Virus record (IMG/VR): IMGVR_UViG_3300047168_000046 | Span: 1 to 35,415 of that record | Reading direction: 5' to 3' (one strand) | DNA from: a virus | Length of the DNA stretch: 35,415 nucleotides | Shown: one piece after another, positions 1-35,415 of the stretch | How the letters are laid out: the number at the start of each line of letters is the position of its first letter | How positions within the stretch are numbered: the first letter of the stretch is position 1 | Program-made: the position numbers and the translations under genes | Notes under the pieces: model-generated | Told to the model about the DNA's origin: nothing | Databases searched by the model: none | Seen by the model: the letters and a program-made list of their open reading frames with translations, nothing else

Positions 1-16
1 GATCGCCTCATCCGCC

Positions 17-121
17 AAACCCAGCGCGCACCGCGCGCGCACCGCGCGCGCATCCTTTTTTGGACGTAAGTATAAACAAGCCATCACGTTCGAAACCGCG
101 CGCGCTTTTTACATCACTTTT
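17..121. repeat. Left copy of 105-bp terminal inverted repeat
   Basis: The reverse complement of 35277-35381. The outer 36 bp (17-52) match perfectly, and so do 25 bp at 89-113. A further 7 bp at 115-121 match after one mismatch. The middle 36 bp is only partly conserved but has the same length. The outer block contains GC alternations with 'acc' spaced every 11 bp, so it could also act as iterons or as a very strong hairpin if the molecule is circular. No gene overlaps it. Confidence 0.9.
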
Positions 122-2166: not shown

Positions 2167-2574
2167 GTGGAAACTGCGCTGATCGCGCTCGCGGCGATCG
2201 TCTGCTTGATCGCGCTAGTGAGCTTTATTTGCGTTTGCTGGAATGAGCCGCCGCCTCCCCAGAAGGTGGCTATACGCGTGATGGATTCGACCCCGCGCCA
2301 CGCCAGGCGGGACGACCTGGCCGAGGCCATTATGCCACTGCCGGCGATCAAGACTGAAACTGAAGGCGCCCTCGCGCAACAGCTCATCAGGCTCGGATAC
2401 ATCGTGCCACTCGAGGTGATCGAGTGCCTGACCAACGACGAATTTGACGAGAGCTGGGAATGGATCAGGACGACGACAAAGCGGAAACACATCAGGAGCT
2501 TCCGCGAGCTGCCGCCCGATATGCCGGCGTGCCTTCGCAGAGCGTTTACCTACGGGAAGGAGCGTGCCCTTTGA
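2167..2574 (+). CDS. Membrane-anchored hypothetical protein (135 aa)
   Basis: It starts with GTG behind a good AGGAG (about 2155-2159). The first 25 residues form a single hydrophobic segment (ALIALAAIVCLIALVSFICV), which should anchor the protein in the cytoplasmic membrane. The remaining 110 residues are soluble and charged. I do not recognise the family. It opens a tightly packed operon leading to the pseudopilin and acyltransferase genes; its stop overlaps the next start in TTGA. A role in the same surface-modifying cassette is an inference from this coupling. Confidence 0.65.
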   Translation: METALIALAAIVCLIALVSFICVCWNEPPPPQKVAIRVMDSTPRHARRDDLAEAIMPLPAIKTETEGALAQQLIRLGYIVPLEVIECLTNDEFDESWEWIRTTTKRKHIRSFRELPPDMPACLRRAFTYGKERAL

Positions 2575-2876
2575 GCCGCTATTTCCCAATCGACTCGATA
2601 ACGGAGCCACCCGAATGGTGGCGAGCATCGTTTCTCAAACGGCAACGCGAGATCAAGCACCTCATACGCGTGATGCTGAAGGAAGTGGATGACGAGCCAC
2701 TTTTCCGCGACGCGTTCTTCGCGGGACTTTTGGCTTACGAGCGATCCGAAATAGAGCACGCGCTCGCGTCGATGGTCGCAGATAACGGGCTGTTCATGGA
2801 CTCGGCCCAGCGCTACAGGATGCGTTACACCGCAGTCGACGCGGCCCTCGACCAGATGGAGGAGACGAACGCGTGA
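2571..2876 (+). CDS. Hypothetical protein (101 aa)
   Basis: I chose the TTG at 2571, which overlaps the upstream TGA as TTGA; all other junctions in this operon are similarly coupled. An earlier in-frame ATG at 2460 would overlap the previous gene by over 100 bp. The product is soluble, rich in acidic and aromatic residues (PPEWWRASFLKRQ near the N terminus) and predicted helical. No family is recognised. Its stop overlaps the next gene as GTGA. Confidence 0.6.
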   Translation: MSRYFPIDSITEPPEWWRASFLKRQREIKHLIRVMLKEVDDEPLFRDAFFAGLLAYERSEIEHALASMVADNGLFMDSAQRYRMRYTAVDAALDQMEETNA

Positions 2877-2989
2877 AGTACCAAATCACCCTGACGGAGC
2901 TGCTCTTGATCGCTGCCTGCCTGCTGTGCGCGGCCTCGATTGCGGGGACGCTCGTTCATTTCTACTACCCTGGGAGCATCGGCCAATGA
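2873..2989 (+). CDS. 38-residue single-span membrane protein
   Basis: A very short gene with GTG start at 2873 overlapping the upstream TGA (GTGA) and TGA stop overlapping the pseudopilin ATG (ATGA at 2986-2989). The product is almost entirely one membrane segment (LLLIAACLLCAASIAGTL) with a short polar tail. The double overlap is good evidence that it is translated. Its function is unknown. A small partner of the adjacent pseudopilin or membrane acyltransferase is possible. Confidence 0.6.
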   Translation: MKYQITLTELLLIAACLLCAASIAGTLVHFYYPGSIGQ

Positions 2990-4281
2990 GACGCGGATTT
3001 ACCTTGATCGAGCTATTAACCGTAATCGTGATCGTGCTCCTGCTGAGCGTGATCGCGCTACCGACTGTGATCCCGGCAATTTCGCACCGCCAGGTTGGCG
3101 AGTCGGCTCGGTTGCTGCAGGCAGCGCTGGCGGGAGCTCGCGACGCAGCCATTCGTGATAACGCCCTGGCCGGGATCAGGCTCTTGCCGGATCCCATTTA
3201 CAAAACCTACCTGGTCGATCCCCAGCTCGGCATCTACGACTTTCCGCGGCTGGCGAATGGGCAGATCGACCCGACGATTGCGCTGGCCGCCAACGCGTGG
3301 GTACCGATCGGCGCGCCGCCTGCTTACGACGACGGGCTAGCCTCGGTCTGCCCGTCGACCATGTACTCGCAATCGCTCACAGGGAACACAACGGCCCTTG
3401 TGCTCGAGGAATCGGTCGGCGCCTGGACCAACGCCGGCGGGGCCTGGGTGTGGCTGCCCAACTCGCCGACGAGCTGGTCGTGGAACGTGCGGGCCGGCGA
3501 TCGGCTGCGGATCAACAATACCGGCGCGTGGTACACCGTCGTGGGACCAAACGCCGCGGGTGTGACCGCCAACCCCCAGCGATTCGTCAACGCCGTGGCG
3601 CCGGGGCAGACGTCGCCGCTCTCGCGGACGATCCCATCACCCGATGGGAAGCAATCGGTGACCGTTAATCCGGAGTTCCTCCTACTCGTCAACGGGCGAG
3701 ACGACAACGGGAACGGCTGGGTCGACGAGGGGTGTGATGGTGTCGACAACAACGCGAACGGCATCATCGACGATCCCGGGCCGATCGATCCAACGGGCAA
3801 GACGCCGGGCGAGTCCGAGCCCGAAGCGTGGCTGGGGGCGATGGCGGCCGGCGCGGCCAACCTGCCCTACACGATCACCCGCCGGCCGGCGCCCACTACC
3901 AACTCACGCCAGACAACGCTGCCGAGCGAAGTGGTGGTTGACCTGACGACGTGGGCGACAACGCAAGAGCGATCGCGGCTGACCGTCGACCCGTACAACG
4001 GGACCGTCGACCTGGTCGTGATGGCGGATGGAAAGGTTGTCGGCACGACGATCTATTCGGCGCCCAGCTCGGTCGGAATGGCGGGAGCGTTCCATCACTT
4101 CTGGCTGGCCGAGCGAGCGGACGTGGTGGCGCCCGTCGGTACCACCGCGCCGAGCCTTCCCACTCCGAGTGGGACGAGCTGGCTCGTGACGGTGTTTGCT
4201 CGGACCGGCGCGGTCACGAACATCGACAACCCGGCGGAGTATCCAAATCCGTTTGCCTATGTACAGCAAGGGGGTCGGTGA
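2986..4281 (+). CDS. Type II/IV pseudopilin-like protein
   Basis: A 431-residue protein opening with a textbook class III prepilin signal. A short basic leader MRRG is followed by FTLIELL, with the conserved glutamate at position 5 of the mature protein, then a hydrophobic helix to about residue 30. Host prepilin peptidase (PilD/GspO) would cut after G4. Residues after 30 keep the pseudopilin-like helix (ISHRQVGESARLLQAAL). A large C-terminal domain follows, with two Asp/Asn-rich calcium-loop-like segments near residues 240-262 (DDNGNGWVDE and DGVDNNANGIIDD). The ATG at 2986 overlaps the preceding stop. Known pseudopilins belong to host secretion or pilus machines; finding one inside a phage operon is unusual. 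Incorporation into host pili or a secretion system, changing phage or surface interactions, is an inference. Confidence 0.82.
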   Translation: MRRGFTLIELLTVIVIVLLLSVIALPTVIPAISHRQVGESARLLQAALAGARDAAIRDNALAGIRLLPDPIYKTYLVDPQLGIYDFPRLANGQIDPTIALAANAWVPIGAPPAYDDGLASVCPSTMYSQSLTGNTTALVLEESVGAWTNAGGAWVWLPNSPTSWSWNVRAGDRLRINNTGAWYTVVGPNAAGVTANPQRFVNAVAPGQTSPLSRTIPSPDGKQSVTVNPEFLLLVNGRDDNGNGWVDEGCDGVDNNANGIIDDPGPIDPTGKTPGESEPEAWLGAMAAGAANLPYTITRRPAPTTNSRQTTLPSEVVVDLTTWATTQERSRLTVDPYNGTVDLVVMADGKVVGTTIYSAPSSVGMAGAFHHFWLAERADVVAPVGTTAPSLPTPSGTSWLVTVFARTGAVTNIDNPAEYPNPFAYVQQGGR

Positions 4282-4282
4282 G

Positions 4283-5326
4283 ATGGAGCATCGCCCCCAG
4301 CTCGACGGCCTGAGACTGGTCGCATTCCTGGCCGTCTACCTGTTTCATTTCGACCCTAACGCGTTTGGCTTCGGGGCCATCGGGGTAAAGTTGTTTTTCG
4401 CCTTGAGCGGCTTCCTGATCGTGAGGATCTTGATCCGCAACGAAGGGCCGTCGCTGGCGGACAACCTGCGGGTGTTTTACCTGCGCCGGACGTTGCGGAT
4501 CTTCCCGCTCTATTACGCGTACCTCTTCACGCTGCTCGCGGCCGGGCGGCTCGAGGGGGCGAAGTGGCAAATCCTTTACCTGACGAACATCTACGGATTC
4601 GCCAAGCAGCGCTGGCCTTACTTTCTTGGCCACTTCTGGACGTTGGCGGTCGAGGAGCAATTTTACGTTTGCTTCCCGGTCGCGCTCTACCTGACCCCGA
4701 AGCGGTGGCGACTGGCGATGATCGCGGCGGCTTTCGTAGGGGGCGAGCTGTGCAGATTCGGACTGGTCGCCTACACGACCCGCCGCTTCACGGGGCAGCT
4801 CCCGATGGTCGCCGGACTGACGCTCCTCATGGGGTGCGCCGCTGGGATCTGGGAGCTGGCTCGGCCGGCCGGGACGAAATGGGCGCCTGGGCCGGGCCTG
4901 TTCTGGGCTGGATGTGGAGTGCTGGCCTTCGTGTGGATTGGCCAGAAAGTGACCGGTCCGCGGCACATCTACTACGACCTGGGCGGCGTGGGGTGCACGC
5001 TGGTCGTACTGGGGGCGTGGACGTCGACCGGGGTGATCGCCTCGGCTCTATCGTGGGAGCCGGCGGTGTACCTGGGTCGCATCAGTTACGGGCTATACGT
5101 GCTGCATATCCCCGCGCTGGCGCTGACAACGGGAATCTGGGGTGTCACCTGGCGGGCGGTCATTGCAGGGATGGCGCTGACTATCATCGCCGCGATGGCC
5201 TCGTGGCACTTTTTCGAGTCGCCGATCTTGTCGCTGAAGTCGCGCTTCCCGTATGGCCCGACCAAACACGGAGAGGAGGAGCTTTCCCATGGATCCATCG
5301 CGATCGCGACAGCCGACGCTGGATGA
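4283..5326 (+). CDS. OafA/YrhL-type membrane acyltransferase
   Basis: A 347-residue multi-span membrane protein of the acyltransferase-3 family, which moves acetyl (or other acyl) groups to surface glycans. It opens with the family signature RPQLDGLRLVAFLAV and has the membrane-embedded histidine in YLFHFDP. FFALSGFLI, RRTLRIFPLYY and the FWTLAVEEQFY block are also present. About ten hydrophobic segments follow, ending with ISYGLYVLHIP. It starts two bases after the pseudopilin stop behind an AGGGGG. Known phage relatives (O-antigen acetylases such as Oac of Shigella phages) change the host surface during lysogeny to block superinfection. That role is inferred here from family and location. 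Confidence 0.9.
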   Translation: MEHRPQLDGLRLVAFLAVYLFHFDPNAFGFGAIGVKLFFALSGFLIVRILIRNEGPSLADNLRVFYLRRTLRIFPLYYAYLFTLLAAGRLEGAKWQILYLTNIYGFAKQRWPYFLGHFWTLAVEEQFYVCFPVALYLTPKRWRLAMIAAAFVGGELCRFGLVAYTTRRFTGQLPMVAGLTLLMGCAAGIWELARPAGTKWAPGPGLFWAGCGVLAFVWIGQKVTGPRHIYYDLGGVGCTLVVLGAWTSTGVIASALSWEPAVYLGRISYGLYVLHIPALALTTGIWGVTWRAVIAGMALTIIAAMASWHFFESPILSLKSRFPYGPTKHGEEELSHGSIAIATADAG

Positions 5327-6088: not shown

Positions 6089-7068
6089 GGCGTGATCGTT
6101 ATCGCTGAACCGTCGGGGTAAATGCCGCGAATTTCCGGGTCCGCGCTGCACGGACCGAGAGTGAAATTGAAAGACCACGGGCAGGACGTAAAGGACGACG
6201 TGCTGCTCGTACCCGACGACTCGAACCCGCCAACGCCTGGCGGGTCAGGCCAGGGGCAACCCTCATTTACCCCGAACCCACCTAAACCGGTGTAATAGAC
6301 GGCGAACGAGCAGGTTGTCTGTGCAAAGACATACGTAATAGCAAATAGCTCGGCTGGACACCCGCAACCGCCCGCGAAAGAAGCGTTCGGCGTCGTGCCG
6401 ACCCATTCCTGCGTCCCCGCGTCATACGCGAGGGTGCATGGACCGTACACGGTATCCGTGAGATAAAGAGTAGCCGGCAGCGCATCGGGGGGCGGGAGAA
6501 CGCACCCGCTCAAGCAGTAGTAATTCGTCAGAGGCGTAAGGGTGACGGTCGTGGGCGCTCCCGAGCATGCCGAACAATCCGACGCGATCGTTACCGTGCC
6601 CGTCGCGTTATTGAAATTGGGCGCCTGAATCGTCCATGGATATGTCCCGGCTCCGGGCAAGCAGACCTCCGCCGGAAGCGTGTAGACCTCGCCGTTAATC
6701 GTTACGGTCGCGTCGCACGCGGCCTGCGCATTACAGCCAGTGGCGCTGAATTCACAGCAATAAGTCGTAGTCACCGGCAAAAGCTTGTAAACATACGAAG
6801 AGCCACACGTAAACGAGACCGAGGCACTGTAGGGCTTCAAACCGCTTGCCGTGATGCTAAGACTGCACGTGCCGGCCGAGCCGATATTGATCGAACAACA
6901 GCCCTCCGCGCCAGTGGTGCAAGTGTAAGTGGACGTGCATGTAAGCGTGACCGTAGCGCCAGAGATGGGATTGCTAGAACAATCCGTGACGCAGATCGTG
7001 ACAGAGCACCCTTCACCGCTACAACAGCCGCATCCGCTGCCGCTTTTCGGGACGCCCAAGATGCCCAT
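6085..7068 (-). CDS. Cysteine-rich beta-domain protein, probable tail-tip or receptor-binding
   Basis: A 327-residue protein with about 28 cysteines, roughly 9% of the chain. ATG at 7068 overlaps the previous stop (ATGA). It starts with a Cys/Gly-rich patch (GSGCGCCSGEGC). A carboxypeptidase-regulatory-like beta domain follows (ISGATVTLTC, then GCCSINIG and LKPYSASVSF), and further beta-rich repeats of similar make-up continue to the end. Its place after the tape measure and tip genes suggests an exposed tail component that binds or modifies the cell surface. The high cysteine content would be stabilising outside the cell. No enzyme motif is visible. Confidence 0.7.
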   Translation of the reverse strand: MGILGVPKSGSGCGCCSGEGCSVTICVTDCSSNPISGATVTLTCTSTYTCTTGAEGCCSINIGSAGTCSLSITASGLKPYSASVSFTCGSSYVYKLLPVTTTYCCEFSATGCNAQAACDATVTINGEVYTLPAEVCLPGAGTYPWTIQAPNFNNATGTVTIASDCSACSGAPTTVTLTPLTNYYCLSGCVLPPPDALPATLYLTDTVYGPCTLAYDAGTQEWVGTTPNASFAGGCGCPAELFAITYVFAQTTCSFAVYYTGLGGFGVNEGCPWPDPPGVGGFESSGTSSTSSFTSCPWSFNFTLGPCSADPEIRGIYPDGSAITITP

Positions 7069-7478
7069 CAGCAATCGGCTCCGAGGAGCCAGAGGCCGTA
7101 ATCGGCTGTGACAACATAGCAGTTGGTGCCGACCGCGATGGTCCCGGAGTTCTGGTACCAGTTGCGAACAGGCGTCGAGGTGGACGTCCAGTCTGGATCC
7201 GGACTGCCGCCGGTCGCGTCGGGGCTCGACGAGTAATAGAGCTGCACGTACCCGCTGCCGTAGGACGAGGACGTCGCCGCCGTGATGGCGGTTGTGACGA
7301 CAGCCTTGAACACGGTCATAGCGGGCGCCTTGCCGAGCTGGACGCCCCGACCGCGGGGGTCGGTGCCGGGCGGGTTGACCTCTCGCTGCATGCGCAACAC
7401 CTCGCGCGCGACCTCACGGACAAAGTCGCGTGAGACGCGGGCGGGGGCGTCGGCCTGGCTGTATCTGGGCCTGATCAT
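7068..7478 (-). CDS. Hypothetical tail-region protein (136 aa)
   Basis: It starts at ATG 7478, eight bases after the preceding stop, and its own stop overlaps the next start. The N-terminal half is basic and helical (RDFVREVAREVLRMQREV). The C-terminal half is Ser/Tyr/Gly-rich and probably beta (SSSYGSGYVQLYYSSS, ending in YGLWLLGADC). Phage proteins of this size between tail tip genes are often baseplate or hub accessories. I cannot name it. Confidence 0.65.
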   Translation of the reverse strand: MIRPRYSQADAPARVSRDFVREVAREVLRMQREVNPPGTDPRGRGVQLGKAPAMTVFKAVVTTAITAATSSSYGSGYVQLYYSSSPDATGGSPDPDWTSTSTPVRNWYQNSGTIAVGTNCYVVTADYGLWLLGADC

Positions 7479-7487
7479 GTGAGGTGG

Positions 7488-8447
7488 TTAGCCGCCACCG
7501 TAGTAGGGGCTGCCGTAGCCGCCGACGAACCCCGAGCGAGCTCCGCTGATGGCATCGGGGTCGAACTCGAAGACCGCAAACGGGAGCTCGGGCTTCGTCT
7601 GGAAAATGCAGTAATAAGGGTCCTCGCCTTTGTCGATCTGGTACCCGCTTTGGTTGAGGAGGATCGGCTCCGTGATCGTCACGCCCTTATATGAAGGATG
7701 GTATTTCACTCCGGTGACTGTCGAGAGGGCGCGCATCCCTTGATTGAGGACGGTGCGCCGATAGCCGTTCTGGCCCGAGCTGTCGGAAGTAGCAGGCCGA
7801 AACTCGAACTGATAGGTTGTCTGCGAATACCAGCCCACGTCTTGATGAAAGAGGTTCTTCGACTTGATCGGCAGACACCTGGCGAAGAGCGGGTCGAAGC
7901 CTCCGAACGCGTCCGAGTTGACGGCATTGCGGTACTGAATCGCTTGCGCCACATTAAACGTCGGCTCATTCCGCACGACGGTCAGCAGAGGCCGGGGATC
8001 GTCTTCCATGAGCGGCGGGTCGAAGGGGTCGAACGCCGTGTTCAAGATAGGATTACCATCCACATCGATGTCGGCGACTATCTCTTGAGTCCGCCAATCC
8101 CACTCGACATCGATCGGCTGCATGAGCGGGTTTTGGGTCGGGCCGCCGCCGGCCCAGAGCGACGAGTAAGGGCCATATTCCACGACGACGAGCCAGCCAA
8201 GCCCGTCCCCATCTTCCTGCGTTGCCGTGAGAGTGTGCGCATACGCATTATTGTCGAACTCGAACTCATTGCCATTGGGCTGGTACTGATCGCCTCGGTT
8301 CACGCCACAGCCCTGAATGGCAAGGTTGGGGCCGTCGTACGTCGAGCTCATGAGCACGCGGAAGATGCGGACGTACTTTCGACCCTCGTCGACTGTCCAC
8401 GCGCCGGTACGCGACACAAAGTCTTCGTTCACGCTAACGATCGACAC
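7488..8447 (-). CDS. Hypothetical tail protein (319 aa), next after tape measure
   Basis: GTG start at 8447 behind GGGGGAAGAG. The protein is rich in beta-type and aromatic residues, with no signal peptide or enzyme motif. In siphoviruses the gene after the tape measure usually encodes the distal tail or a hub protein, and this position is the main evidence. The sequence ends in a Gly/Tyr-rich tail (GFVGGYGSPYYGGG). Confidence 0.65.
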   Translation of the reverse strand: MSIVSVNEDFVSRTGAWTVDEGRKYVRIFRVLMSSTYDGPNLAIQGCGVNRGDQYQPNGNEFEFDNNAYAHTLTATQEDGDGLGWLVVVEYGPYSSLWAGGGPTQNPLMQPIDVEWDWRTQEIVADIDVDGNPILNTAFDPFDPPLMEDDPRPLLTVVRNEPTFNVAQAIQYRNAVNSDAFGGFDPLFARCLPIKSKNLFHQDVGWYSQTTYQFEFRPATSDSSGQNGYRRTVLNQGMRALSTVTGVKYHPSYKGVTITEPILLNQSGYQIDKGEDPYYCIFQTKPELPFAVFEFDPDAISGARSGFVGGYGSPYYGGG

Positions 8448-9878: not shown

Positions 9879-9890
9879 GGGTGTTTTCGC

Positions 9891-9926
9891 TGAAGACGTC
9901 GGGCTGGAAAGCCCGACCTACGTTTT
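9891..9926 (-). repeat. Palindromic intergenic repeat, copy 1
   Basis: Hairpin GTCGGGCT-GGAA-AGCCCGAC (stem 9898-9905 with 9910-9917). Thirty bases (9891-9920) are identical to 14721-14750 and include the TAG stop of the upstream gene. Lies between the chaperone extension and the tape measure start. Confidence 0.85.
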
Positions 9927-10573
9927 GGCGGCTTGCATGGCTGACACACCTTGAAACAACGCTTTGCCCGCATCGCCGCTGAGGATTCTTGGCTTGGGCC
10001 TCACCCGGCCGGTGAAGTCTTCGGGACAATACCGGTGGTGGCCACCGCTCATGGCGTTGGCCACCACCGATGCAACTCGGCCGCCGATCAAAACGTGATC
10101 CGGGACCTGGTCGAGCTGGTCGTAGGCAAGCCACCGAGACAGCTCCTCGCTGTCCATCCGCAGCCGCAGCTCGCGGACGCTCATCCCCAGCGCGAGCGCT
10201 AACTTGTGCTCGAATCGGAGGAGAGGATTGTCGACGAGTTTTTTTTTAGCTCGTCCACATCCGCCTTGCTGAGACCGCTGAGCTTGGTGGCGACGGCGAA
10301 GATTCGATCGAGAGCCTTGGCGCTCTTGTTGGTCACGGCGTTGACGTCGGCCTCGGTGAAGAGCAGCTCGCCCGATGCATTGCACACGCTGGCGACGGCC
10401 AGACGCGCGCGGACGTCCTTGTAGGGATCTTTGATCTGGCGGGCCTCGAACGCATCGCGCTCGCCTGCCGTCATGGCACGGATTGAGACTACACCGCCCC
10501 ACTCGGGGATCTCGACTTCCTCTCGCTTCAGATCCTCAATGCCGAGAATCTGGCTCTTGTCTAGATAACTCAT
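9918..10573 (-). CDS. Tail assembly chaperone, -1 frameshift product (G-T type)
   Basis: Long form made when ribosomes slip back one base on the A9 run (10239-10247 on the plus strand). It joins the short chaperone to a C-terminal extension with GMSVRELRLRMDSEELSRWLA, which is characteristic of phage gpT-like tail assembly extensions. The resulting length is 218 residues, and the arithmetic (657 bases read) fits a -1 shift exactly. The zero-frame codons CTA AAA AAA AAC contain A-AAA-AAC, a strong slippery heptamer. As in lambda G/GT, the ratio of short and long forms guides tube polymerisation on the tape measure. Confidence 0.85.
10199..10573 (-). CDS. Tail assembly chaperone, short form (G type)
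   Basis: 124 residues. ATG at 10573 overlaps the tail tube stop (ATGA). The sequence has the usual chaperone pattern: a small beta N terminus (EVEIPEWGGVVSIRAMTAGERDAFE), a helical domain, then the slippery lysine codons and a serine-rich tail. It lies between tail tube and tape measure, as in almost all siphoviruses. It binds the tape measure during tail assembly and is not part of the virion. Confidence 0.88.
   Translation of the reverse strand: MSYLDKSQILGIEDLKREEVEIPEWGGVVSIRAMTAGERDAFEARQIKDPYKDVRARLAVASVCNASGELLFTEADVNAVTNKSAKALDRIFAVATKLSGLSKADVDELKKNSSTILSSDSSTS
10239..10247 (-). promoter_or_regulatory. Programmed -1 frameshift slippery site
   Basis: Nine consecutive A on the coding strand, in frame as CTA AAA AAA AAC. 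This lets both P- and A-site tRNAs re-pair after a -1 shift. The alternative frame stays open to 9918 and encodes a conserved-type extension. Confidence 0.82.
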
Positions 10574-10986
10574 GACCAGGTCACTAGCCCCGAAAGTTTG
10601 AGCTCGACGTCGGCCTCGAGGTTGTCTTCCTCGTTCATGCCTTTCGGTTTGAACTTGGTCAAAAACGCCGAGAAAGCCGCCGTGTCCGAGCCGCCCGTGG
10701 TGTTGAAAAGGACGTTCCACACAATCAAAGTTTGCGGCCACGTGTTGGCCCAGGCTGTCAACTGCGTGTGAGTCGTGTTGGCCGGGTCATACTGGATCGT
10801 GAACGAGACCGTGCCGGAATCAGGGAGCTGCGCACGGTAGGTCTTACTGGTCGACGCCAGGTTAGTGGTTTCCTTGGCGCCAACCTCGACGGCCGGGCCA
10901 TCGATCTCGGTGACCTGCGCAATCACCGTGAGTGTGGAGCTGATGGTGGCCTTTAAGACTGTGCCTTGCCCGACATTGATGGCCAT
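10570..10986 (-). CDS. Major tail tube protein
   Basis: 138 residues from ATG 10986; an upstream in-frame extension to 11058 has no ribosome site and is out of character. The protein is beta-rich with the tube-protein feel (GPAVEVGAKETTNLASTSKTYRAQLPDSGTVSF). It is immediately followed by the tail chaperone gene with an ATGA overlap and preceded by the tail terminator. About 1-2 hundred copies would form the tail tube. Confidence 0.85.
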   Translation of the reverse strand: MAINVGQGTVLKATISSTLTVIAQVTEIDGPAVEVGAKETTNLASTSKTYRAQLPDSGTVSFTIQYDPANTTHTQLTAWANTWPQTLIVWNVLFNTTGGSDTAAFSAFLTKFKPKGMNEEDNLEADVELKLSGLVTWS

Positions 10987-14707: not shown

Positions 14708-14720
14708 TGGTTACGGGCAC

Positions 14721-14756
14721 TGAAGACGTCGGGCTGGAAAGCCCGACCTAAGTTTG
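14721..14756 (-). repeat. Palindromic intergenic repeat, copy 2
   Basis: Identical over 30 bp (14721-14750) to copy 1 at 9891-9920, again including the TAG stop of the upstream gene. Stem 14728-14735 with 14740-14747. It lies between the HslV-like gene and the gp10-like gene. Confidence 0.85.
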
Positions 14757-15254
14757 GATGCCGAACATATCTCTGGTGATCGTGACTACTGGGCCCTCGC
14801 AGAGCGTGCTGAGCTGGACGGCAGTCTCGACGGCCAGGCGCGGGGGGTGGCCCAGATGGAGCGCGGCCGTCGCGAAGTCCGCGCCCGCGCCGATGGCTAT
14901 GAAATTGGTCACGCGCTGAACAAGGAAACCACACACGGAAAAGACGCCTGACTCGAAGCCGAGCAAATAGGAATTCTCGATCGATCGGGAGTCGGTCCGT
15001 TCTTTTTTCCAGCGACTGAACTCGGCGATGTGCTCGACGATCGATTCCTCGTTTGGAATCGGGCTGCGCGTCTTCAGGAAGAGCGAGAAGAGGCTACTTT
15101 CATCGCAAGAGCCGACCGCGCCCACGATGAGACCATCAATCGCGTGGAGCTTGGCGAACCCGGTATCGCGGCGCTGGCTCGCGCCCAGGACAACGATCGA
15201 ATCGGCCGCCATCTCGTAGCGATTGGGATAGATCCTCGCCGCTACAACCGACAT
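14748..15254 (-). CDS. HslV/proteasome-like N-terminal-nucleophile protein
   Basis: 168 residues that follow the HslV / proteasome beta-subunit pattern throughout. After Met removal the chain starts with Ser2 (MSVVAARI), in the place of the catalytic threonine. AADS gives the conserved aspartate, KLHAIDGLIVGAVG matches the K33 region (HslV KVRRLYNGKVLAGFAG), and AIGAGADFATAALHLG matches the C-terminal AIGSGGxYAxAA motif. If active it would be a threonine/serine-type peptidase. It lies between connector and gp10-like genes, where no such protein is normally found. Family assignment is by motif order only. Processing of structural proteins or proteolysis with a host HslU-like unfoldase are possibilities. 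Confidence 0.62.
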   Translation of the reverse strand: MSVVAARIYPNRYEMAADSIVVLGASQRRDTGFAKLHAIDGLIVGAVGSCDESSLFSLFLKTRSPIPNEESIVEHIAEFSRWKKERTDSRSIENSYLLGFESGVFSVCGFLVQRVTNFIAIGAGADFATAALHLGHPPRLAVETAVQLSTLCEGPVVTITRDMFGIQT

Positions 15255-20039: not shown

Positions 20040-20507
20040 TCAAAGCTGCGACTGGATCCAGGGAGCGAGGCCGACGTTTTCGATCTGCACGGCGAAGGCC
20101 TCGAGCTCGAAGATCGCGCGTTCAATGCACCGCTCCATTTCGGCGACTTCACTGGCCGTTGTGATGTCGCCGGCGGTGTGGATTGCGTTCCACGCGGCGC
20201 GATAACCGTCGAGGAGTGAAACGAAAAAACGCGTGGAGTCGGCGACGACTTCTCCGACGTCGCCGGCCGGGTCGATCGTGGCCGGCGTCATGCTGATCCG
20301 GATCGTGCCACCGAGCCGGATGATTCGTTTCTCGAGATACGCACGGCGCCTGTGCGACGCGCGAAGTTGCCATCGGAAAAACTTCCTCAGACGCTTGACC
20401 TTGTGGAACGCGAAAACGTATTCCCACCCATGCGCAGCCTCATGAAGCGTTACTTCCGAGGGGATGAGAGCGTTGAGCGCGTCGAGCACGCCGGGGAAGG
20501 CTGTCAT
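20040..20507 (-). CDS. Ferritin-like four-helix protein (putative)
   Basis: 155 residues, coupled to the portal by ATGA. The pattern is helix A (VLDALNALIPSEVTLHEAAH), helix B (RASHRRRAYLEKRIIRLGGT), a linker, helix C (SLLDGYRAAWNAIHTAGD) and helix D (AEMERCIERAIFELEAFAV). The LNxL-ExT start and RIIRLGGT after helix B read like bacterioferritin/Dps-type proteins. Diiron ligands are only partly conserved, so iron binding is uncertain. The HEAAH string could instead suggest an HExxH protease, but no protease context follows. The location between portal and protease genes is unusual. I treat the fold as likely and the function as open. Confidence 0.45.
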   Translation of the reverse strand: MTAFPGVLDALNALIPSEVTLHEAAHGWEYVFAFHKVKRLRKFFRWQLRASHRRRAYLEKRIIRLGGTIRISMTPATIDPAGDVGEVVADSTRFFVSLLDGYRAAWNAIHTAGDITTASEVAEMERCIERAIFELEAFAVQIENVGLAPWIQSQL

Positions 20508-22567: not shown

Positions 22568-24181
22568 TCAGAAACTGAGGCTCAAAAGGCCTCTGGATTC
22601 GTAGACACTGGGTCCATCGTCTGGAGAACCGGCCGAGTAGCCGGCGACGGCGTTGACCAGCGCCGCCATGCCGTCGATTTTCTTTTTTGACCTGCGCTTG
22701 CTCAGTTTGATGTTTCCGGCGGCGTCGGCCTCGGCCGTGGCGTTACCGGCGTGCCATCGAAGGATTGGATTGCCACCATGCCGTAGCTTTTGGCCGAGAA
22801 CGAGGCGATGGAGCTCTTTCGTCGGATCCGACAGTGAAAGGAAGCCTTGGCGGATCGTCTCGACCGGCAAACCGTCTTGCTCTTTGAGCTCGATCGCGAG
22901 TTTGGCGGCCCTGTAGGGATCGATAAGAACTTTTCTGACGTCGAACTGACCGGCAACTGCGTTGATTTGGGCTCTCACAAATGCAAAATCGATTACGTTT
23001 CCAGGGGTCAAAGTGATCAAACCCATCGCGGCCCACATGCGATATGGCTGCTGATGCCTTCGCTCGAGGTCGACGATGTTCTCTTTCGGGAGCCAGAAGT
23101 GCATTTTGATGCCGATGATTCCATCTTCCAGCTCGATCACATTGGCAAGGGCGGTGAGATCTTCGTTTTCCGAGAGGTCCAATCCCATCCAGCAAGGCGA
23201 TTTAGGCGGGGCGACGAACGGTGCGGCGCAGGCGTCCCACTGAGCGAGATCAAGGAAGTCTGATTCCGCGCGACTGACGATGTTAAGACGCAGCCGAAGG
23301 AAGTTGCCCATCTCGGCCGGGCTGATCTTGGCGTTTTCGAGATCCTGCTTGAAATCGGCCTCGGTGAGCGTCACTCCCAAGCTTGGATTCGCCTTCGCCC
23401 AGGTCGCCGGTGATTCGATATCGTCATCGGGATCGGCACGATAGACCACGCCCAAAAATTCGGTATCAGGACGGGTGCCATTGTTGACCGATTCGGCATG
23501 TGTTCTCAGCTCGTACCAGACGCCTTCCTCTTCCTCCCCTGCCGTTGTGATGATGATCTTGAGCGGTTGCTCTCTCGAGAGGCCGGCGTATTTGAAGACG
23601 TCCCACAACTCGCGGGACTTGAAGCGGTGAATTTCGTCGAAGATGATGCCGCTGCCGCTGACGCCGTCTTTGCTCGGGGCGTCGGCCGAGTTTTTTTGGA
23701 TCTTACCGTTGCCCACTGGATCGATGATGCGACCCTTGGACTTTACGACTTCAAGGCGAGATGCCAGATCGGATGAAGCCTGTACCATTCGAGCACATTC
23801 GTCGAACACGATACTGGCTTGCTCGCGGTCGACCGCGTTGAGGTAAACCTCGGGAGCTCCCTCACCATCGGCCAGCAGGAGATAGAGGCAGAGTGTCGAT
23901 ACCAGCGTGCTCTTACCGTTTTTCTTGGCCACCTCCAGATATGCGACCTTGAACCGCCGCTTGCCGTCACGTTTCCGCCAACCGAAGAGACGCATAAGGA
24001 AATCACGCTGCCAAGGAAGCAACCCAAGAGGCTCGCCAGCCCAGCGCCCCTTACTCTGCCGGCAGAATGATTCGATGAATTCACAGACGAATTCCCCTTT
24101 GGACGTGTCGAAGTAGCAGCCCTCGGCGAGGGCTTGTTCGTCGGAGGGGTTGCGGATCCAGTTCTGCGGGGTTTTCTTCAC
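22568..24181 (-). CDS. Terminase large subunit
   Basis: 537 residues. Walker A is YLEVAKKNGKST (about 81-92), Walker B GIIFDEIHRF (178-187), and the coupling motif KIIITTAG (208-215) follows. The nuclease domain has WMGLDLSENEDLTALANV (D335 as a metal ligand) and a second acidic site in VLIDPYRA. The pattern is the HK97-like Terminase_1 type. ATG overlaps the small subunit stop (ATGA). It cuts and translocates DNA into the prohead. Confidence 0.95.
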   Translation of the reverse strand: MKKTPQNWIRNPSDEQALAEGCYFDTSKGEFVCEFIESFCRQSKGRWAGEPLGLLPWQRDFLMRLFGWRKRDGKRRFKVAYLEVAKKNGKSTLVSTLCLYLLLADGEGAPEVYLNAVDREQASIVFDECARMVQASSDLASRLEVVKSKGRIIDPVGNGKIQKNSADAPSKDGVSGSGIIFDEIHRFKSRELWDVFKYAGLSREQPLKIIITTAGEEEEGVWYELRTHAESVNNGTRPDTEFLGVVYRADPDDDIESPATWAKANPSLGVTLTEADFKQDLENAKISPAEMGNFLRLRLNIVSRAESDFLDLAQWDACAAPFVAPPKSPCWMGLDLSENEDLTALANVIELEDGIIGIKMHFWLPKENIVDLERRHQQPYRMWAAMGLITLTPGNVIDFAFVRAQINAVAGQFDVRKVLIDPYRAAKLAIELKEQDGLPVETIRQGFLSLSDPTKELHRLVLGQKLRHGGNPILRWHAGNATAEADAAGNIKLSKRRSKKKIDGMAALVNAVAGYSAGSPDDGPSVYESRGLLSLSF

Positions 24182-24579
24182 GCTTTCCGACCAGCTTGCT
24201 TCGCGAGGAACTCCGCCATCTTATCCTTCGGCGGCTCAACGGTTGATTTGATTCGCGACCGTGAGGAAGGCGTGAGTCCAAACTCCACAAGCAAACGCCG
24301 ATACCTGTCTCTGGCGGCGGAGTTGAGCGGGTCGCGACGGATCGTGTCGTATTCGTCGCAGAGCTGCTCGAACGCGGGGACGTCGCCGAGGCTCAGAAGG
24401 CCAGCAGACGCGAGAACGGGAGCCAGACGCTTCCAGATATCAACGCCGAAATTACCGAGCCATGCGGGCGGGTCGGGCGCACCTGCGCCGGGGATGATTG
24501 GTTCCCTGGTGTTGATCCGGCACGGCTGATCGCCGGCGAGAATTTTGAGTGCCGTCGGCTTTGGTTTTCGGCCTCGCAC
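24178..24579 (-). CDS. Terminase small subunit, P27-like
   Basis: 133 residues from a GTG. Opens with RGRKPKPTALKILAGDQP, the P27-family signature, followed by the Pro-rich linker, LGNFGVDIWKRLAPVLASAGLL and the C-terminal RRLLVEFGLTPSSRSRIK. The central region is shorter than in most P27 proteins. It should recognise the packaging site and recruit the large subunit. Confidence 0.88.
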   Translation of the reverse strand: MRGRKPKPTALKILAGDQPCRINTREPIIPGAGAPDPPAWLGNFGVDIWKRLAPVLASAGLLSLGDVPAFEQLCDEYDTIRRDPLNSAARDRYRRLLVEFGLTPSSRSRIKSTVEPPKDKMAEFLAKQAGRKA

Positions 24580-24636: not shown

Positions 24637-24947
24637 ATGAGACGCAAACGAATCGTTGAGTCTTTCCGTTCGGCGGCCGAGGCGATCGGAACTGTCGAGG
24701 CAGGCATGAGCCTTTTCGCGGTGACGCGCGGGCAGTGGTCGATGATCGATGCGATTTTTCACTGCCTGAGCCAGACCGGACCAGCAAACATCAGCGTGAG
24801 GCGTCGGCCAACATCACCCAGTACGGGATCGTTGTCCAACACCCCCGCACCGGGAACCCAATCGAAAACCCCTACCTGGTAATCCGGGACCGAGCAGCGA
24901 AGAAGCTACTCGCCATGCGGAAGATCAAAGCGGACTTCCTCTGGTAA
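24637..24947 (+). pseudogene. Broken fusion of two foreign packaging-region genes
   Basis: Two reading frames meet at about 24790-24810. The first (from ATG 24637) reads GMSLFAVTRGQWSMIDAIF, the start of a PLD-like phage protein usually located before a P27-type small terminase gene. After a frame change, the rest reads NITQYGIVVQHPRTGNPIEN and ends KIKADFLW, matching the C-terminus of another P27-type small terminase. A deletion that fused these two neighbours explains both halves and the frame shift. It faces away from the real terminase genes, so it may be a relic of another phage. Confidence 0.6.
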
Positions 24948-25610: not shown

Positions 25611-25928
25611 CTATCGTTCCCTGGCATGATGGCTGGAATGGCATGACTCGCAGTTTGATTCCAGATTGTCGATCGATAGCCGCAATTCAGGGAAGTCTCT
25701 GGCCGGCTTGATGTGGTGCACCGTGGTTGCTGGCCGTAAGACGTTGAGCTCTTGACATGGCTCACAGAGCGGCGTCGACGAGAGCTTCACCTGCCGAATC
25801 GACTTCCAGGCGCGGCTGTTATAGAACGCCTTCGCCACCTCATCGCGCCTGCCGCGATCGTAATCCCGTCGCATCTGAGCTAGCGTCGGAGAGTGAGGCG
25901 ACCTGAAAGAGGATACGCGTTGCGGCAT
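25611..25928 (-). CDS. HNH endonuclease
   Basis: 105 residues. Contains YDRGRRDEVAKAFYNSRAW, then LCEPC, VHHIKPARDFPEL and NLESNCESCHSSHH, which form the HNH core with its structural cysteines. Phage HNH proteins of this size assist terminase-dependent packaging, cutting near cos or pac. Here it is 1 kb upstream of the terminase genes on the same strand, as usual. Confidence 0.9.
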   Translation of the reverse strand: MPQRVSSFRSPHSPTLAQMRRDYDRGRRDEVAKAFYNSRAWKSIRQVKLSSTPLCEPCQELNVLRPATTVHHIKPARDFPELRLSIDNLESNCESCHSSHHARER

Positions 25929-26072
25929 CAAAGAAATCCCCGGAATTTGACCCGTGCAAACGAATCCATATTGTCAGCACCGGCGACGGGAGAAAACAAA
26001 CCTGTGCGTCGACTACACTCGCACCGGCCACGCCGCGGCCGAGGGATTCCGCGACGCAGCCGGCGGAGGGCT

Positions 26073-26189
26073 TCACCTGGACTTGAGTACGAAAAAAAAC
26101 CAGACCAAGATCAAAGTCGCGGCCATAACAAACCCCAAAATTTGCTCGATGGCAAAAAGCATCAGACCAATATGCTCAAGAGTGTTCAT
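26073..26189 (-). CDS. 38-residue single-span membrane protein
   Basis: ATG overlaps the preceding stop (ATGA). After a short polar N terminus the protein is almost wholly hydrophobic (LGFVMAAT-LILVWFFFVL), ending in KSR. It is the third of three overlapping membrane genes. Possible small holin/antiholin-type component; its function is not shown by sequence. Confidence 0.6.
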   Translation of the reverse strand: MNTLEHIGLMLFAIEQILGFVMAATLILVWFFFVLKSR

Positions 26190-26596
26190 CGACTATCTTC
26201 CAATGCGCCAGACCGCAAACCGCCCGCCTGCCTATCTGGGCTCGTGTCTTTCCGGCTGACGTTCGCATCAGCATGCGAAGCCAGCTCCTGGAGCCTGATA
26301 CGCTGCTCGAGCTCGAGATACTCTTGCTTCCGCCGCGCATCGGCATCGGCCGCATCTCGAGCTCGCCGCGCATCATCTTCGAGTCGCTCCAACCTGAGTC
26401 GTGACCGCTCGCGGCGCTCCGCCAGGTGGAGATACAGGCCCGTTGCTCCGATCGACAAACCGCCAACCATCGAAAGCGCCCACTTGAGATCTTCGGCGTG
26501 GATCCCGGCGACCATATTGATGGCACGCTCGATCGGTTCGGCAAGCGCCACCGCCGCTCCCGCCAGAGTCAATTGTGATCCACTAGGGGAACTCAT
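26186..26596 (-). CDS. Membrane protein with long charged coiled-coil tail (136 aa)
   Basis: A hydrophobic segment (WALSMVGGLSIGATGLYLHL, about 40-59) is followed by a strongly charged helix (LRLERLEDDARRARDAADAD and beyond), probably a coiled coil. This topology resembles Rz-type spanins or small lysis accessory proteins. ATG overlaps the previous stop. No signal for lipoprotein or peptidoglycan cleavage is seen. Confidence 0.65.
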   Translation of the reverse strand: MSSPSGSQLTLAGAAVALAEPIERAINMVAGIHAEDLKWALSMVGGLSIGATGLYLHLAERRERSRLRLERLEDDARRARDAADADARRKQEYLELEQRIRLQELASHADANVSRKDTSPDRQAGGLRSGALEDSR

Positions 26597-26742
26597 CGCC
26601 GATCCAACTCCTCGACGCGCGGCAACGGCTTACGCCGATCGCCGCGTGACTGTACTGCGATCAAAACCGAGAACACGACCGCGATGAGGCCCAAAAGCCC
26701 GAGGGCCAGATCGACAAAACTGTCGGGGTACACTTCACTCAC
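26593..26742 (-). CDS. 49-residue single-span membrane protein
   Basis: GTG start overlaps the upstream TGA (GTGA at 26739-26742) and the stop overlaps the next ATG. One transmembrane helix (LALGLLGLIAVVFSVLIAV) is followed by a basic tail (SRGDRRKPLPRV). This is the size and layout of a small holin-like protein. The tight coupling to two other membrane genes supports a lysis-module reading, although no endolysin is visible nearby. Confidence 0.6.
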   Translation of the reverse strand: MSEVYPDSFVDLALGLLGLIAVVFSVLIAVQSRGDRRKPLPRVEELDRR

Positions 26743-27029
26743 GCGGTGACGATCTCACTGAGTTGTTTGGAGGCCCACTTCGGCCGTCTCGATTTTCGCG
26801 TTGCGGAACGCCGACGTGCAGGCGCCTTACCAGACAAATAACTGAGCTTTGGGCGGGACCTCCACGCATACAGCAGGTCAGCGACTAGCTGCCTGTCCGA
26901 CTCTTTTACCATCCGGCCGCGAACGCCATCGACCATCTCAATGTCGTGGAACACGCACAGTCCGGCAAGAAGCTCTACATACGTTCCGAGTTCTCGCGAC
27001 AGCGACCAGAGCGAGACGTGCCCCGTCAT
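26739..27029 (-). CDS. Hypothetical protein (96 aa), first gene of the minus block
   Basis: ATG at 27029 follows AAGGGGGTGA. The N-terminal half is helical (VSLWSLSRELGTYVELLAGL) and the C-terminal half is strongly basic (ARRRSATRKSRRPKW), so nucleic-acid contact is possible. I cannot name a family. The promoter at 27056-27084 sits directly upstream. Confidence 0.65.
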   Translation of the reverse strand: MTGHVSLWSLSRELGTYVELLAGLCVFHDIEMVDGVRGRMVKESDRQLVADLLYAWRSRPKLSYLSGKAPARRRSATRKSRRPKWASKQLSEIVTA

Positions 27030-27055
27030 GCTCACCCCCTTGTTGTCTATCTATA

Positions 27056-31659: not shown

Positions 31660-31946
31660 CACGCCTCCGTTCGTTGATCCGATCAGACGGCGCCAATCTT
31701 ATACGGTATCACCGGGGATTGTATACCAACCGACGATAACGAACCACAATCGGATACGGATCGTATTCATTGCGTATGCGAATTGTATAAGCTAGAATTG
31801 TTGGAGACTGATCGCGCCGCGCCCGCGAGCGAAACAAAAACGCCCGGCCGGGAAAACATCCCGGACCGGGCTCCGTGTTCGAAGCACGCAGTGGTGACGA
31901 ACTCCCAAGAATCTATTCGACCGAACCACCAAGGAGCAACACGCCA
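31660..31946. promoter_or_regulatory. Divergent control region with repeated GTAT/ATAC palindromes
   Basis: Contains several short inverted motifs (ATACGGTAT, TGTATACC, GGATACGGATCGTATTC, GCGTATGCG) that could be operators for the adjacent ribbon-helix-helix protein. A plus-strand promoter TTGCGT-17-TAGAAT lies at 31770-31798. A strong hairpin, GCCCGGCCGGGA / TCCCGG-A-CCGGGC, lies at 31842-31871. Confidence 0.5.
31770..31798 (+). promoter_or_regulatory. Likely early promoter
   Basis: TTGCGT (31770-31775) and TAGAAT (31793-31798) are separated by 17 bp. It is placed to drive the plus-strand early operon (31947 onward). Confidence 0.45.
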
Positions 31947-32286
31947 ATGCGCGAAAAGCCGATCTTGCTCGCAGCCCCGTATGTGAGGGCAATCCTTGAG
32001 CGACGAAAGACCCAGACCCGCCGCGTTGTCAGCAGGCGCGGAGCGGCCGGGCCTCGGGAAGTGCTACGAATCTGCCGTAACCGCTGGGGAGTGGCACTAT
32101 GAAGGCGCCTACGGATCGTGCACCTGTGCGGATAAAGAAGCGATTCCGCCGATCAAAGACAGACTGACGCCTGCCAGATGTGTTTGGCGCGAGGCATGGG
32201 ATGCGCTGCACGATGTAGGCCGTCGCTGGCGCGAAAACCCGCTGGTCTGGGCAATCACCTTCGAGCGAGTCGACGAAACAAAATAA
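31947..32286 (+). pseudogene. Frameshifted gene of the 'MREKPI...KTQTRR' phage family
   Basis: From ATG 31947 (behind AAGGAG) the frame reads MREKPILLAAPYVRAILERR-KTQTRRVV. This is the start of a common phage family (MREKPIIFSGPMVRAIL...KTQTRRV), often called ASCH-like. Near 32030-32060 the family-like sequence moves to another frame, reading GEWHYEGAYGSC then CVWREAWDALHDV and ending WAITFERVDETK at 32286. Zero frame ends at 32102. The gene needs one frame change, which may be a mutation, a sequencing error or programmed shifting. Confidence 0.6.
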
Positions 32287-32830: not shown

Positions 32831-33544
32831 ATGATCACCTCCGCATTTCCCGCTGCGCGCGGGGCACGCGCTCAGCGTCCGCCCGCTCTCGCGCGCCGCA
32901 ACGAGCTCGGCGCGGGCCTGACACCCGCCGAAGAGCGAGCACTGGCGGCCCGAATCAAAGCCGGAGACGAGCTCGCCCGCAACGAGCTGGTGATGGCCAA
33001 CGCGGCCCTGGCAAGCTACTTCGCCAAGCGATTCCGCTGGCGTTGGCATGACCTCACAATCGAAGATCTCCGCCAGGAGGCCATGCTCGGGCTAATCACG
33101 GCCGCCGAACGATTCGACCCCGAGAGCCACCACACGCGGTTCAGCACTTACGCCGCCTACTGGATCAACTGCCGGCTCCGCCGCGCAGCCATCACCACGG
33201 GCGAAAGCATCCGAATCCCCGACCACCATCACCAGAAGGGAACAGCCGCGGAACACCGATCCACAGTCCGACTCGCATCACATCGCATGGATCGAATGGC
33301 CACGCGAAAAGGCCAAACCGGCCCACCGACCACGGACGACCCCGCCGATACCCGAATGCGCCTGATCGACTCGCTCACGACCGACCAGCGCGCCCTACTG
33401 GACTGGTACGCCGACGACATCCAGCAATTGAAAACCCGCACCGGCGAACCGTTCCAGGTCCGCGAAAAGAAAAGGATCGCAGCCCGACGACTGCTCGCAA
33501 AGTTGCGAGCCAAACTCCAAGCCGAGGAAGGATCCCAATCATGA
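32831..33544 (+). CDS. Phage RNA polymerase sigma factor
   Basis: 237 residues with sigma-70 region 2 at about 45-120. It reads LVMANAALASYFAKRF, DLTIEDLRQEAMLGLITAAE-RFDP and TRFSTYAAYWINCRLRRA, matching promoter-melting and -10 recognition segments. The region-4-like C-terminal part (LTTDQRALLDWYADDIQQL onward) keeps the length but a poor helix-turn-helix. It would redirect host RNA polymerase, probably to late phage promoters. The stop overlaps the replication gene (ATGA). ATG lies behind AAGGA. Confidence 0.88.
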   Translation: MITSAFPAARGARAQRPPALARRNELGAGLTPAEERALAARIKAGDELARNELVMANAALASYFAKRFRWRWHDLTIEDLRQEAMLGLITAAERFDPESHHTRFSTYAAYWINCRLRRAAITTGESIRIPDHHHQKGTAAEHRSTVRLASHRMDRMATRKGQTGPPTTDDPADTRMRLIDSLTTDQRALLDWYADDIQQLKTRTGEPFQVREKKRIAARRLLAKLRAKLQAEEGSQS

Positions 33545-35289
33545 GCTATGGCGAATTGATCGAGCGAAACCCCGCGACCAGAATGACGTCCGCCTTCCAG
33601 GCCGCCGACGAGCTCGCGCCGCCCCACCATCTCGAGGCCGAAAAGAGCTGCATCGGCGCCATGCTCTACGACAACGCGGTCATCGACGACGTGCTCGAGA
33701 TCCTCCGCGCCGAGGACTTCTACCGCGATGCCCATCAAGTCATCTTTCGCCGGATCGAGTACCTCCACAAAAAGGGCACGCCCGTCGATAACGTCACCCT
33801 GGGCGATGACCTGCGCGTTCTCGGTCTCTGGGACGCAGTCGGCGGCATGGACTACCTGCACGAGATCATCATGTCCACGCCCCACGCGGCCAACGCGCGG
33901 TATCACGCCAACATCGTCAAGGAAAAGGCGAAGGCGCGACTCTCGATCGAGCAGCTCAAAGATCTGCTCAGGCGAGCCCACACGCAGCAAGAAATCCCCG
34001 ACGATATCCTGGAAGCGCAGTCCAGGATGATCGAAAGCATGCGATCGGACCGGGAAGAGCACGACGAGCTCGCCATCAACCCCCTGCCCACCAAAATGGA
34101 AGCGCCTGCCTTCCGCGGGCTGCTCGGCGACCTGGTGCACCGAATCGCACCCGAGACCGAGGCGTCACCCGAGGGAATCCTGGGCCAGCTCCTCCTAACA
34201 TTCGGCAACGTCGCCGGCCGCCGGCCGCACTGGGTCGTGAATGGGCGAAGGCACCACGCGAACCTGAATCTATGTTTGACCGGCCCCACTGGCGCCGGCC
34301 GCAAGGGGACCGCCTGGGACTGCACGCGTTGGCTTTTCAGCCAGTGCGACGAGCAATGGGCCAGGACGCCAATCCTATCCGGCATCGCGTCCGGTGAGGG
34401 CCTCATCCAGAAGGCGAGGGACTCCCGCGGACCATTGCTCATCGTAGAGTCTGAGTTTGGCCGGCTGCTCACCAGCTCGGGCCGTGACAATAACACGATC
34501 TCGCATGTATTGCGCGAGGCGTTCGACGGGGGCGCCCTGTCATTGCCGACCCGCAAAGACTCGCTCTACGTCGAGGACGCGCACATCTCGGTGATCGGGC
34601 ACATCACCTACACCGAGCTGAGGTCGAAAATCACGCAGTGCGACATCGACAACGGACTGGTCAATAGATTCATGTGGCTGCATGTCTACCGCGCGAGATC
34701 GCTCCCAGAAGGTGGCGATTTCGGCAGCCTCAAGCAGGTACTCGCGCCCCTGATCCAAGACCTGTCCTTCGCGGTCGATTTCGCCAAGCACGACAATGGC
34801 CATGACGTGCCTTACATGCGCGACGACGAGGCCAAGAAGTTCTGGCGACCGGTCTACGAAGAGCTCACCGAGCCCATCCAGGGAAGCTACGGAAGCGCCG
34901 TCGAAAGACGCGCTCCCATCGTCACCCGGATCGCCATGATCTACGCCATGGTAGACCGGGCGTTTTACATCGGAAAGAACCACATCGAATCGGCCCTGGC
35001 CTTCTGGCGCTACTGCGACCAGACAGCCGCGCACATCTTCGGCGCGCCCAAGCGAGATAAGCGCCTGGCAAAGCTCATGGAGCTGCTGGACGCCGCCGAG
35101 GACGGACTCCGCCGGACCGACATCAACCAGAAACTGGGCAACGGCCGCATGACGCCGGCCGAGCTCGACGCCCTCATCGACGCCGCCTACGCGTCGGGGA
35201 AATACCTGTACAAGGAGGTGAAGACCGGCGGTGCCAAGCGAAGGCTACTAGTGCACAAGAAGTACAGTAATGATGAAAAAGTGCTGTAA
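33541..35289 (+). CDS. Replication protein: DnaB N-terminal domain joined to a DUF3987-type ATPase
   Basis: 582 residues. Residues about 26-165 are a DnaB-helicase N-terminal domain (PPHHLEAEKSCIGAMLYDNA, VTLGDDLRVLG, then MDYLHEIIMSTPHAANARYH). A DUF3987-like ATPase follows: ASPEGILGQLLLTFGNVAGR, Walker A GPTGAGRKGT (248-257), Walker B LLIVESEFGRLL, sensor HISVIGHITYTEL and NGLVNRFMW. Canonical DnaB has a RecA domain here instead. The fusion may load or replace the host helicase at the phage origin. It is the last gene before the right terminal repeat, which overlaps its final codons. Confidence 0.85.
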   Translation: MSYGELIERNPATRMTSAFQAADELAPPHHLEAEKSCIGAMLYDNAVIDDVLEILRAEDFYRDAHQVIFRRIEYLHKKGTPVDNVTLGDDLRVLGLWDAVGGMDYLHEIIMSTPHAANARYHANIVKEKAKARLSIEQLKDLLRRAHTQQEIPDDILEAQSRMIESMRSDREEHDELAINPLPTKMEAPAFRGLLGDLVHRIAPETEASPEGILGQLLLTFGNVAGRRPHWVVNGRRHHANLNLCLTGPTGAGRKGTAWDCTRWLFSQCDEQWARTPILSGIASGEGLIQKARDSRGPLLIVESEFGRLLTSSGRDNNTISHVLREAFDGGALSLPTRKDSLYVEDAHISVIGHITYTELRSKITQCDIDNGLVNRFMWLHVYRARSLPEGGDFGSLKQVLAPLIQDLSFAVDFAKHDNGHDVPYMRDDEAKKFWRPVYEELTEPIQGSYGSAVERRAPIVTRIAMIYAMVDRAFYIGKNHIESALAFWRYCDQTAAHIFGAPKRDKRLAKLMELLDAAEDGLRRTDINQKLGNGRMTPAELDALIDAAYASGKYLYKEVKTGGAKRRLLVHKKYSNDEKVL

Positions 35290-35381
35290 AAAGCGCGCGC
35301 GGTTTCGAACCCGTGACGCTGACTCGACTTGCAAAAAAAAAGAGGTGCGCGCGCGGTGCGCGCGCGGTGCGCGCTGGGTTT
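35277..35381. repeat. Right copy of 105-bp terminal inverted repeat
   Basis: Inverted partner of 17-121. It starts inside the last codons of the replication gene that ends at 35289 and runs to within 34 bp of the window end. Perfect blocks lie at 35285-35309 and 35346-35381. The run of A at 35333-35341 mirrors the T run of the left copy. Confidence 0.9.
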
Positions 35382-35415
35382 ATCAACCTATGTACGTGCG
35401 CGCATGGATCGCCTC

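Follow-up and report, generated by a model that had tools for sequence, protein, structure and literature searches.

The three small ORFs just upstream of the genes for an HNH endonuclease and the two terminase subunits (terS, terL), in a 35,415-nucleotide stretch of viral DNA (the window), may well form the membrane-lesion (holin-like) part of a late lysis cassette, with a partner enzyme that has been lost, replaced or become unrecognisable. Their slot is the one taken in four related phages by a peptidase and small membrane ORFs, and we infer all of the lysis functions discussed here from position. Late in infection, the small proteins would open the inner membrane. In the relatives, a cytosolic peptidase would then leave through this opening to attack proteins of the envelope; in the window phage, this partner would have been lost, replaced by something unrecognised, or supplied by the host. 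A preliminary description of this DNA had reported that no endolysin was visible anywhere in the 35 kb, and none is recognisable in Pfam, PHROGs, NCBIfam or six-frame profile searches. Its suggestion of a non-standard lysis mechanism appears more plausible in the light of the lineage, where predicted peptidases occur without recognisable muralytic enzymes.

Identity, host and completeness of the virus

The window encodes portal, prohead protease, HK97-type capsid, head-tail proteins, tail tube and tape measure, along with two tyrosine integrases, a sigma factor and a DnaB-like/DUF3987 protein. The best explanation is that it represents a complete, temperate siphovirus of Planctomycetales. The capsid protein shares 57–67% identity with its counterparts on uncultured virus contigs and on two MAG contigs, labelled Planctomycetales bacterium and Singulisphaera sp. 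(three remoter matches, at 23–29%, were set aside), and the terL profile has matches at E ≤ 1e-90 in 9 of 45 genomes from that order, a 7.5-Mb contig among them. The planctomycete host proposed at the outset is well supported by the sequences of these relatives, although MAG bins may combine sequences from different organisms.

The first nine bases of the window are also its last nine, and the ends carry an inverted repeat, imperfect and about 105 bases long (Table 1), whose right arm starts at the end of the replication gene. Three relatives (G007, G008 and G009) also have an inverted repeat, which follows the replication gene at 15–19 bases and encloses a loop of 57–106 bases; two of them, G007 (36,210 bp, direct terminal repeats of 141 bases) and G009 (37,923 bp, 127 bases), are complete. 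The simplest reading is that the window is one circle broken inside the inverted repeat, so that the limits of the contig do not simply account for the missing enzyme, although a few loop bases may be absent. A fragment with the enzyme beyond the contig end is unlikely, given the terminal repeat and the presence of a repeat in the corresponding place in the relatives. The repeat (window 1–121 and 35277–35415, and its counterparts in G007–G009) is perhaps a replication origin.

Several other features of the window were seen. A ferritin-like protein (20040–20507) is encoded between the portal and prohead protease genes; its match to PF00210 (E 3.5e-4) is below the cut-off, and it has a homologue in G009 (41%). 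On the strand opposite terS, 24637–24944 holds the remains of a conserved gene pair, of which two stretches match intact G007 genes (70–72%), and similar genes are found at loci L069 and L075. An identical, hairpin-capable stretch of about 31 bases occurs at 9890–9920 and 14720–14750, one copy just ahead of the tape-measure gene and the other just ahead of a gp10-like gene. Overlapping frames at 9918–10741 resemble the frameshift-made G and G-T tail assembly chaperones. A cluster at 2460–5326 comprises a 38-aa TM ORF (2873–2989), a large prepilin-like protein that is conserved in G007 and G008, and an O-acyltransferase.

Table 1. Coordinates of the small ORFs and neighbouring genes, the terminal inverted repeat, and members of the second papain-like family in other prophage stretches
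Feature	Position	Strand	Remarks
98-aa ORF	26739–27035	-	no family match; directly upstream of 49-aa ORF
49-aa single-TM protein	26593–26742	-	GTG start; charge pattern N-out/C-in; candidate holin-like
136-aa protein	26186–26596	-	ATG start; candidate holin-like by position and architecture
38-aa single-TM protein	26073–26189	-	ATG start
HNH endonuclease	25611–25931	-	phrog_144, 2.9e-25
Terminase small subunit (terS)	24178–24579	-	phrog_83, 6.9e-28
Terminase large subunit (terL)	22568–24181	-	profile match
Terminal inverted repeat, left arm	17–121		alignment score 122; maximum among 300 random pairs, 36
Terminal inverted repeat, right arm	35277–35381		directly behind replication gene 33541–35289
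Putative second papain-like family	L068:5189–5863		Cys, His, Asp-Asn motifs
Putative second papain-like family	L072:5345–6082		Cys, His, Asp-Asn motifs
Putative second papain-like family	L074:5751–6473		Cys, His, Asp-Asn motifs
Putative second papain-like family	L075:4968–5975		Cys, His, Asp-Asn motifs

The three small ORFs and their surroundings

The 49-, 136- and 38-aa ORFs follow one another on the minus strand with successive 4-base overlaps, and the 98-aa ORF ahead of them shares 4 bases with the first. The full order on this strand is 98 aa, 49, 136, 38, HNH, a 109-aa ORF, terS and terL. Such a chain has no significance by itself, as a chain of four is present in 69 of 100 simulated sequences under a permissive rule. 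Codon usage is likewise inconclusive: the true HNH gene scores below all three ORFs, so codon bias is uninformative and by itself gives the trio no support. A 264-aa ORF on the opposite strand was dismissed as an artefact, its codon usage being strongly non-coding.

Hydrophobicity is more telling for two of the three. Among the 151 ORFs of 36–60 aa in the window, the 49-aa ORF ranks first on the Kyte-Doolittle scale (2.91) and the 38-aa ORF second (2.71), and in 40 Markov-simulated sequences, with 7,811 ORFs in all, no ORF scores as high as 2.5. The maximum for the 136-aa ORF is a weak 1.31. Of the three overlapping small membrane genes originally described, the overlaps and the strongly hydrophobic character of the two shortest were thus confirmed, but membrane character is weak in the longest. 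The 136-aa protein has one or two weak hydrophobic stretches (at about 8–27 and 38–58), followed by a charged, helical tail rich in arginine and glutamate, and matches the DUF7365 coiled coil of Pfam below the cut-off (E 0.0012). From its sequence, a weak TM and a coiled coil are likely, and the arginine-rich flank after the TM predicts that the coiled-coil tail would be cytoplasmic.

The surroundings also favour the lysis-cassette reading. Within 1.5 kb upstream of HNH, small hydrophobic ORFs reach about 7-fold the density (15 in ∼23 kb) seen on other parts of that strand (27 in ∼293 kb), and at least one strong small TM ORF lies within that distance at 11 of 15 loci, with none at the other four. 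These 15 loci are those with HNH and enough upstream sequence; two without HNH and one with too little upstream were left out.

The proteins had been described as possible holin or spanin parts, and these two readings fare differently. A small size with one to several TM, as expected of holins, is strongly evident in the 49- and 38-aa proteins and weakly in the 136-aa protein. None of the three gives a significant match to any named holin family in PHROGs or Pfam; the best PHROG holin match of the 136-aa protein is phrog_1296 (E 0.35), and the equivalent genes of G007 and G008 match holin phrog_1350 at E 0.23 and 0.019. The 49- and 38-aa proteins have no Pfam match in single scans at E ≤ 1, and no relative of the 136-aa protein was found in IMG/VR or phage records. 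Similarity between the trio and the small proteins of the relatives is marginal, with 2 of 300 shuffles scoring equally high. A holin-like role is plausible from position and hydrophobicity, though profile similarity is weak; the spanin reading is not supported. An i-spanin has an N-terminal TM with a periplasmic coiled coil, and an o-spanin is a lipobox-bearing lipoprotein whose gene commonly lies within or just after that of the i-spanin. The tail of the 136-aa protein is predicted to have the opposite orientation to that of an i-spanin, and the reading was rejected because no ORF of at least 36 aa in the window has a lipobox behind a hydrophobic stretch.

Cell-wall hydrolases and the peptidases of related phages

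The profile searches of unclassified genes that had been proposed as a check gave no cell-wall hydrolase domain. For all 52 window proteins, no muralytic family is among the best 25 of 43 Pfam families (the other 18 are weaker than 3.5e-4), the best 25 of 78 PHROGs or the best 25 of 90 NCBIfam families. Single Pfam scans of 20 unclassified proteins at E ≤ 1 gave nothing muralytic, single PHROGs searches of 20 window proteins gave no cell-wall hydrolase and only the holin match mentioned above, and the 136-aa protein matches no cell-wall hydrolase in Pfam at E ≤ 0.1. Six-frame searches with PF00959, PF01510, PF08291, PF01464 and PF00877 (phage lysozyme, amidase-2, M15, SLT and NlpC/P60) found no match in six virus records, including the window; the method does work there, since two of the profiles matched contigs of the G007 assembly other than the phage contig.

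Fast-evolving lysins are missed by profile searches, and an ordinary muralytic endolysin too diverged for profiles, for example inside an unclassified tail or early protein, with the trio as its holin set, is a possibility to which we give rather modest weight. Many window proteins match no family, and two tail proteins (7488–8447 and 7068–7478) are common to relatives that also lack a recognisable lysin. Against this stand the lack of any match in the three family collections and a catalytic-motif scan of the window that gave no candidate beyond a few short, chance-like matches. The tail protein at 7488–8447 was considered as a hidden lysin and set aside; its model, of low confidence (pLDDT 56), looks beta-rich and structural. 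An HslV-like Ntn hydrolase (14748–15254), which has a Met-Ser start and the Asp and Lys typical of its family, was also considered. It would be cytosolic, and its homologues lie at different places, between terS and terL in the fragment L009 and at HNH in L074. A lytic role was rejected on these grounds and because L074 has it in addition to another peptidase.

Among the proteins of relatives, too, no muralytic family was found in sets of 70, 64 and 131 (the last from upstream regions only). Five relatives without a recognisable endolysin, two of them circular and complete, have peptidases: papain-like in three, astacin-like in one and trypsin-like in one. G007, G008 and G009 share a gene order that begins with a sigma factor and a gene of ∼195–240 aa and continues with a peptidase of ∼260 aa (phrog_19005, papain-like), two to five small ORFs, mostly membrane-like, and then HNH, terS and terL; the peptidase block is at the spot of the 98-aa ORF in the window. 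An invariant Cys and a Gly-Gly-His are present in 7 of 7 phrog_19005 homologues, though the Asn that precedes Trp-Gly in papain is not conserved. The modelled structure (pLDDT 71.6, pTM 0.77) resembles procathepsin K (Foldseek E 2.5e-8), other papain proteases and phage proteins named Peptidase_C1, so that a C1A papain-like fold with Cys and His is predicted. There is no evident signal peptide. The gene occurs in 2 of 294 planctomycete genomes, one being the G007 phage contig, so that it belongs to phages and is not widespread in their hosts. A homologue in an unrelated phage (MW202816.1) lies directly behind an annotated amidase; this adjacency supports a lysis role for the papain-like gene and, because the two enzymes occur together, argues against any general rule that a protease takes the place of the lysin.

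In G001 the same slot holds an astacin-like peptidase (PF01400, Pfam 5e-6; myroilysin, E 4e-40), followed by small membrane ORFs. G010 encodes a trypsin-like protein that has a hydrophobic segment at its N-terminus and for which adjacency to small membrane ORFs was not seen. A second, secreted papain-like family is found in 4 of 10 other Planctomycetales prophage stretches, ∼2.3–3.2 kb upstream of HNH (Table 1). It is a putative peptidase by its conserved motifs; its first member has no Pfam match, and there was no credible PDB sequence match. L009 lacks a peptidase over the 3.5 kb that precede HNH.

None of these peptidases is found in the window, where the phrog_19005 search gave no match at E ≤ 10, and the ∼195–240-aa gene that precedes the peptidase is missing as well. 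These two absences would fit a defective or degenerating prophage in which the relatives' sigma-X-peptidase block has been lost, the missing enzyme being a matter of decay rather than of a new mechanism. Of the conserved gene opposite terS, only two pieces are left (24637–24798 and 24795–24944), and an ORF near 31875–32286, which we take to be ASCH-like from its motif, appears split between frames. However, all genes for head, packaging and tail have open reading frames, and an independent virus contig with ends that fit together speaks for a replicating form, which makes decay an unlikely explanation.

It is similarly improbable that Planctomycetales phages digest envelope proteins rather than peptidoglycan, with interchangeable peptidases (papain-like, astacin, trypsin-like and secreted papain-like) in place of an endolysin beside holin-like genes, and membrane proteins alone in the window phage. 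If peptidases do stand in for endolysins in these phages, this would be a new lysis strategy and would offer a handle on planctomycete envelope proteins.

The host envelope and known lysis systems

The planctomycete envelope was long held to be protein-based, and an atypical envelope had been offered as a reason for the missing enzyme. This argument is weakened by a report that the sacculi of planctomycetes contain peptidoglycan and are broken by lysozyme (PMC4432640). A phage without a muralytic enzyme would therefore still have to cope with peptidoglycan.

Tailed phages of about this size normally use a holin plus an enzyme, and this speaks against lysis by one small membrane protein that blocks peptidoglycan synthesis in the manner of single-gene lysis proteins; such lysis, or an exit of particles without any lysis, would agree with the failure to find an enzyme and is quite improbable. 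In the planctomycete phage and prophage literature that our search for lysis and endolysins retrieved, the one exit route described is the chronic release, without lysis, of Phage-ZRK32 from the deep-sea planctomycete Poriferisphaera heterotrophicis (PMC10945688). The preferred reading remains that of a holin-like trio with a missing or unrecognisable partner. Phage-ZRK32 resembles the window phage in being a planctomycete phage; as described, it differs in being 21.9 kb long and extrachromosomal and in having different genes.

Nearer comparisons are offered by the relatives. At the phrog_19005 locus of G007, G008 and G009, and with the astacin-family peptidase of G001, a peptidase takes up the position just ahead of the small membrane genes. 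Neither is in the window, and the phrog_19005 protein resembles protein-cutting papain proteases, not peptidoglycan peptidases. The lambda-type cassette S-R-Rz/Rz1 consists of holin, endolysin and spanin genes. Unlike it, the window has no recognisable endolysin or spanin pair, and the trio precedes HNH-terS-terL; like it, the window has several small membrane genes together in one late cluster.
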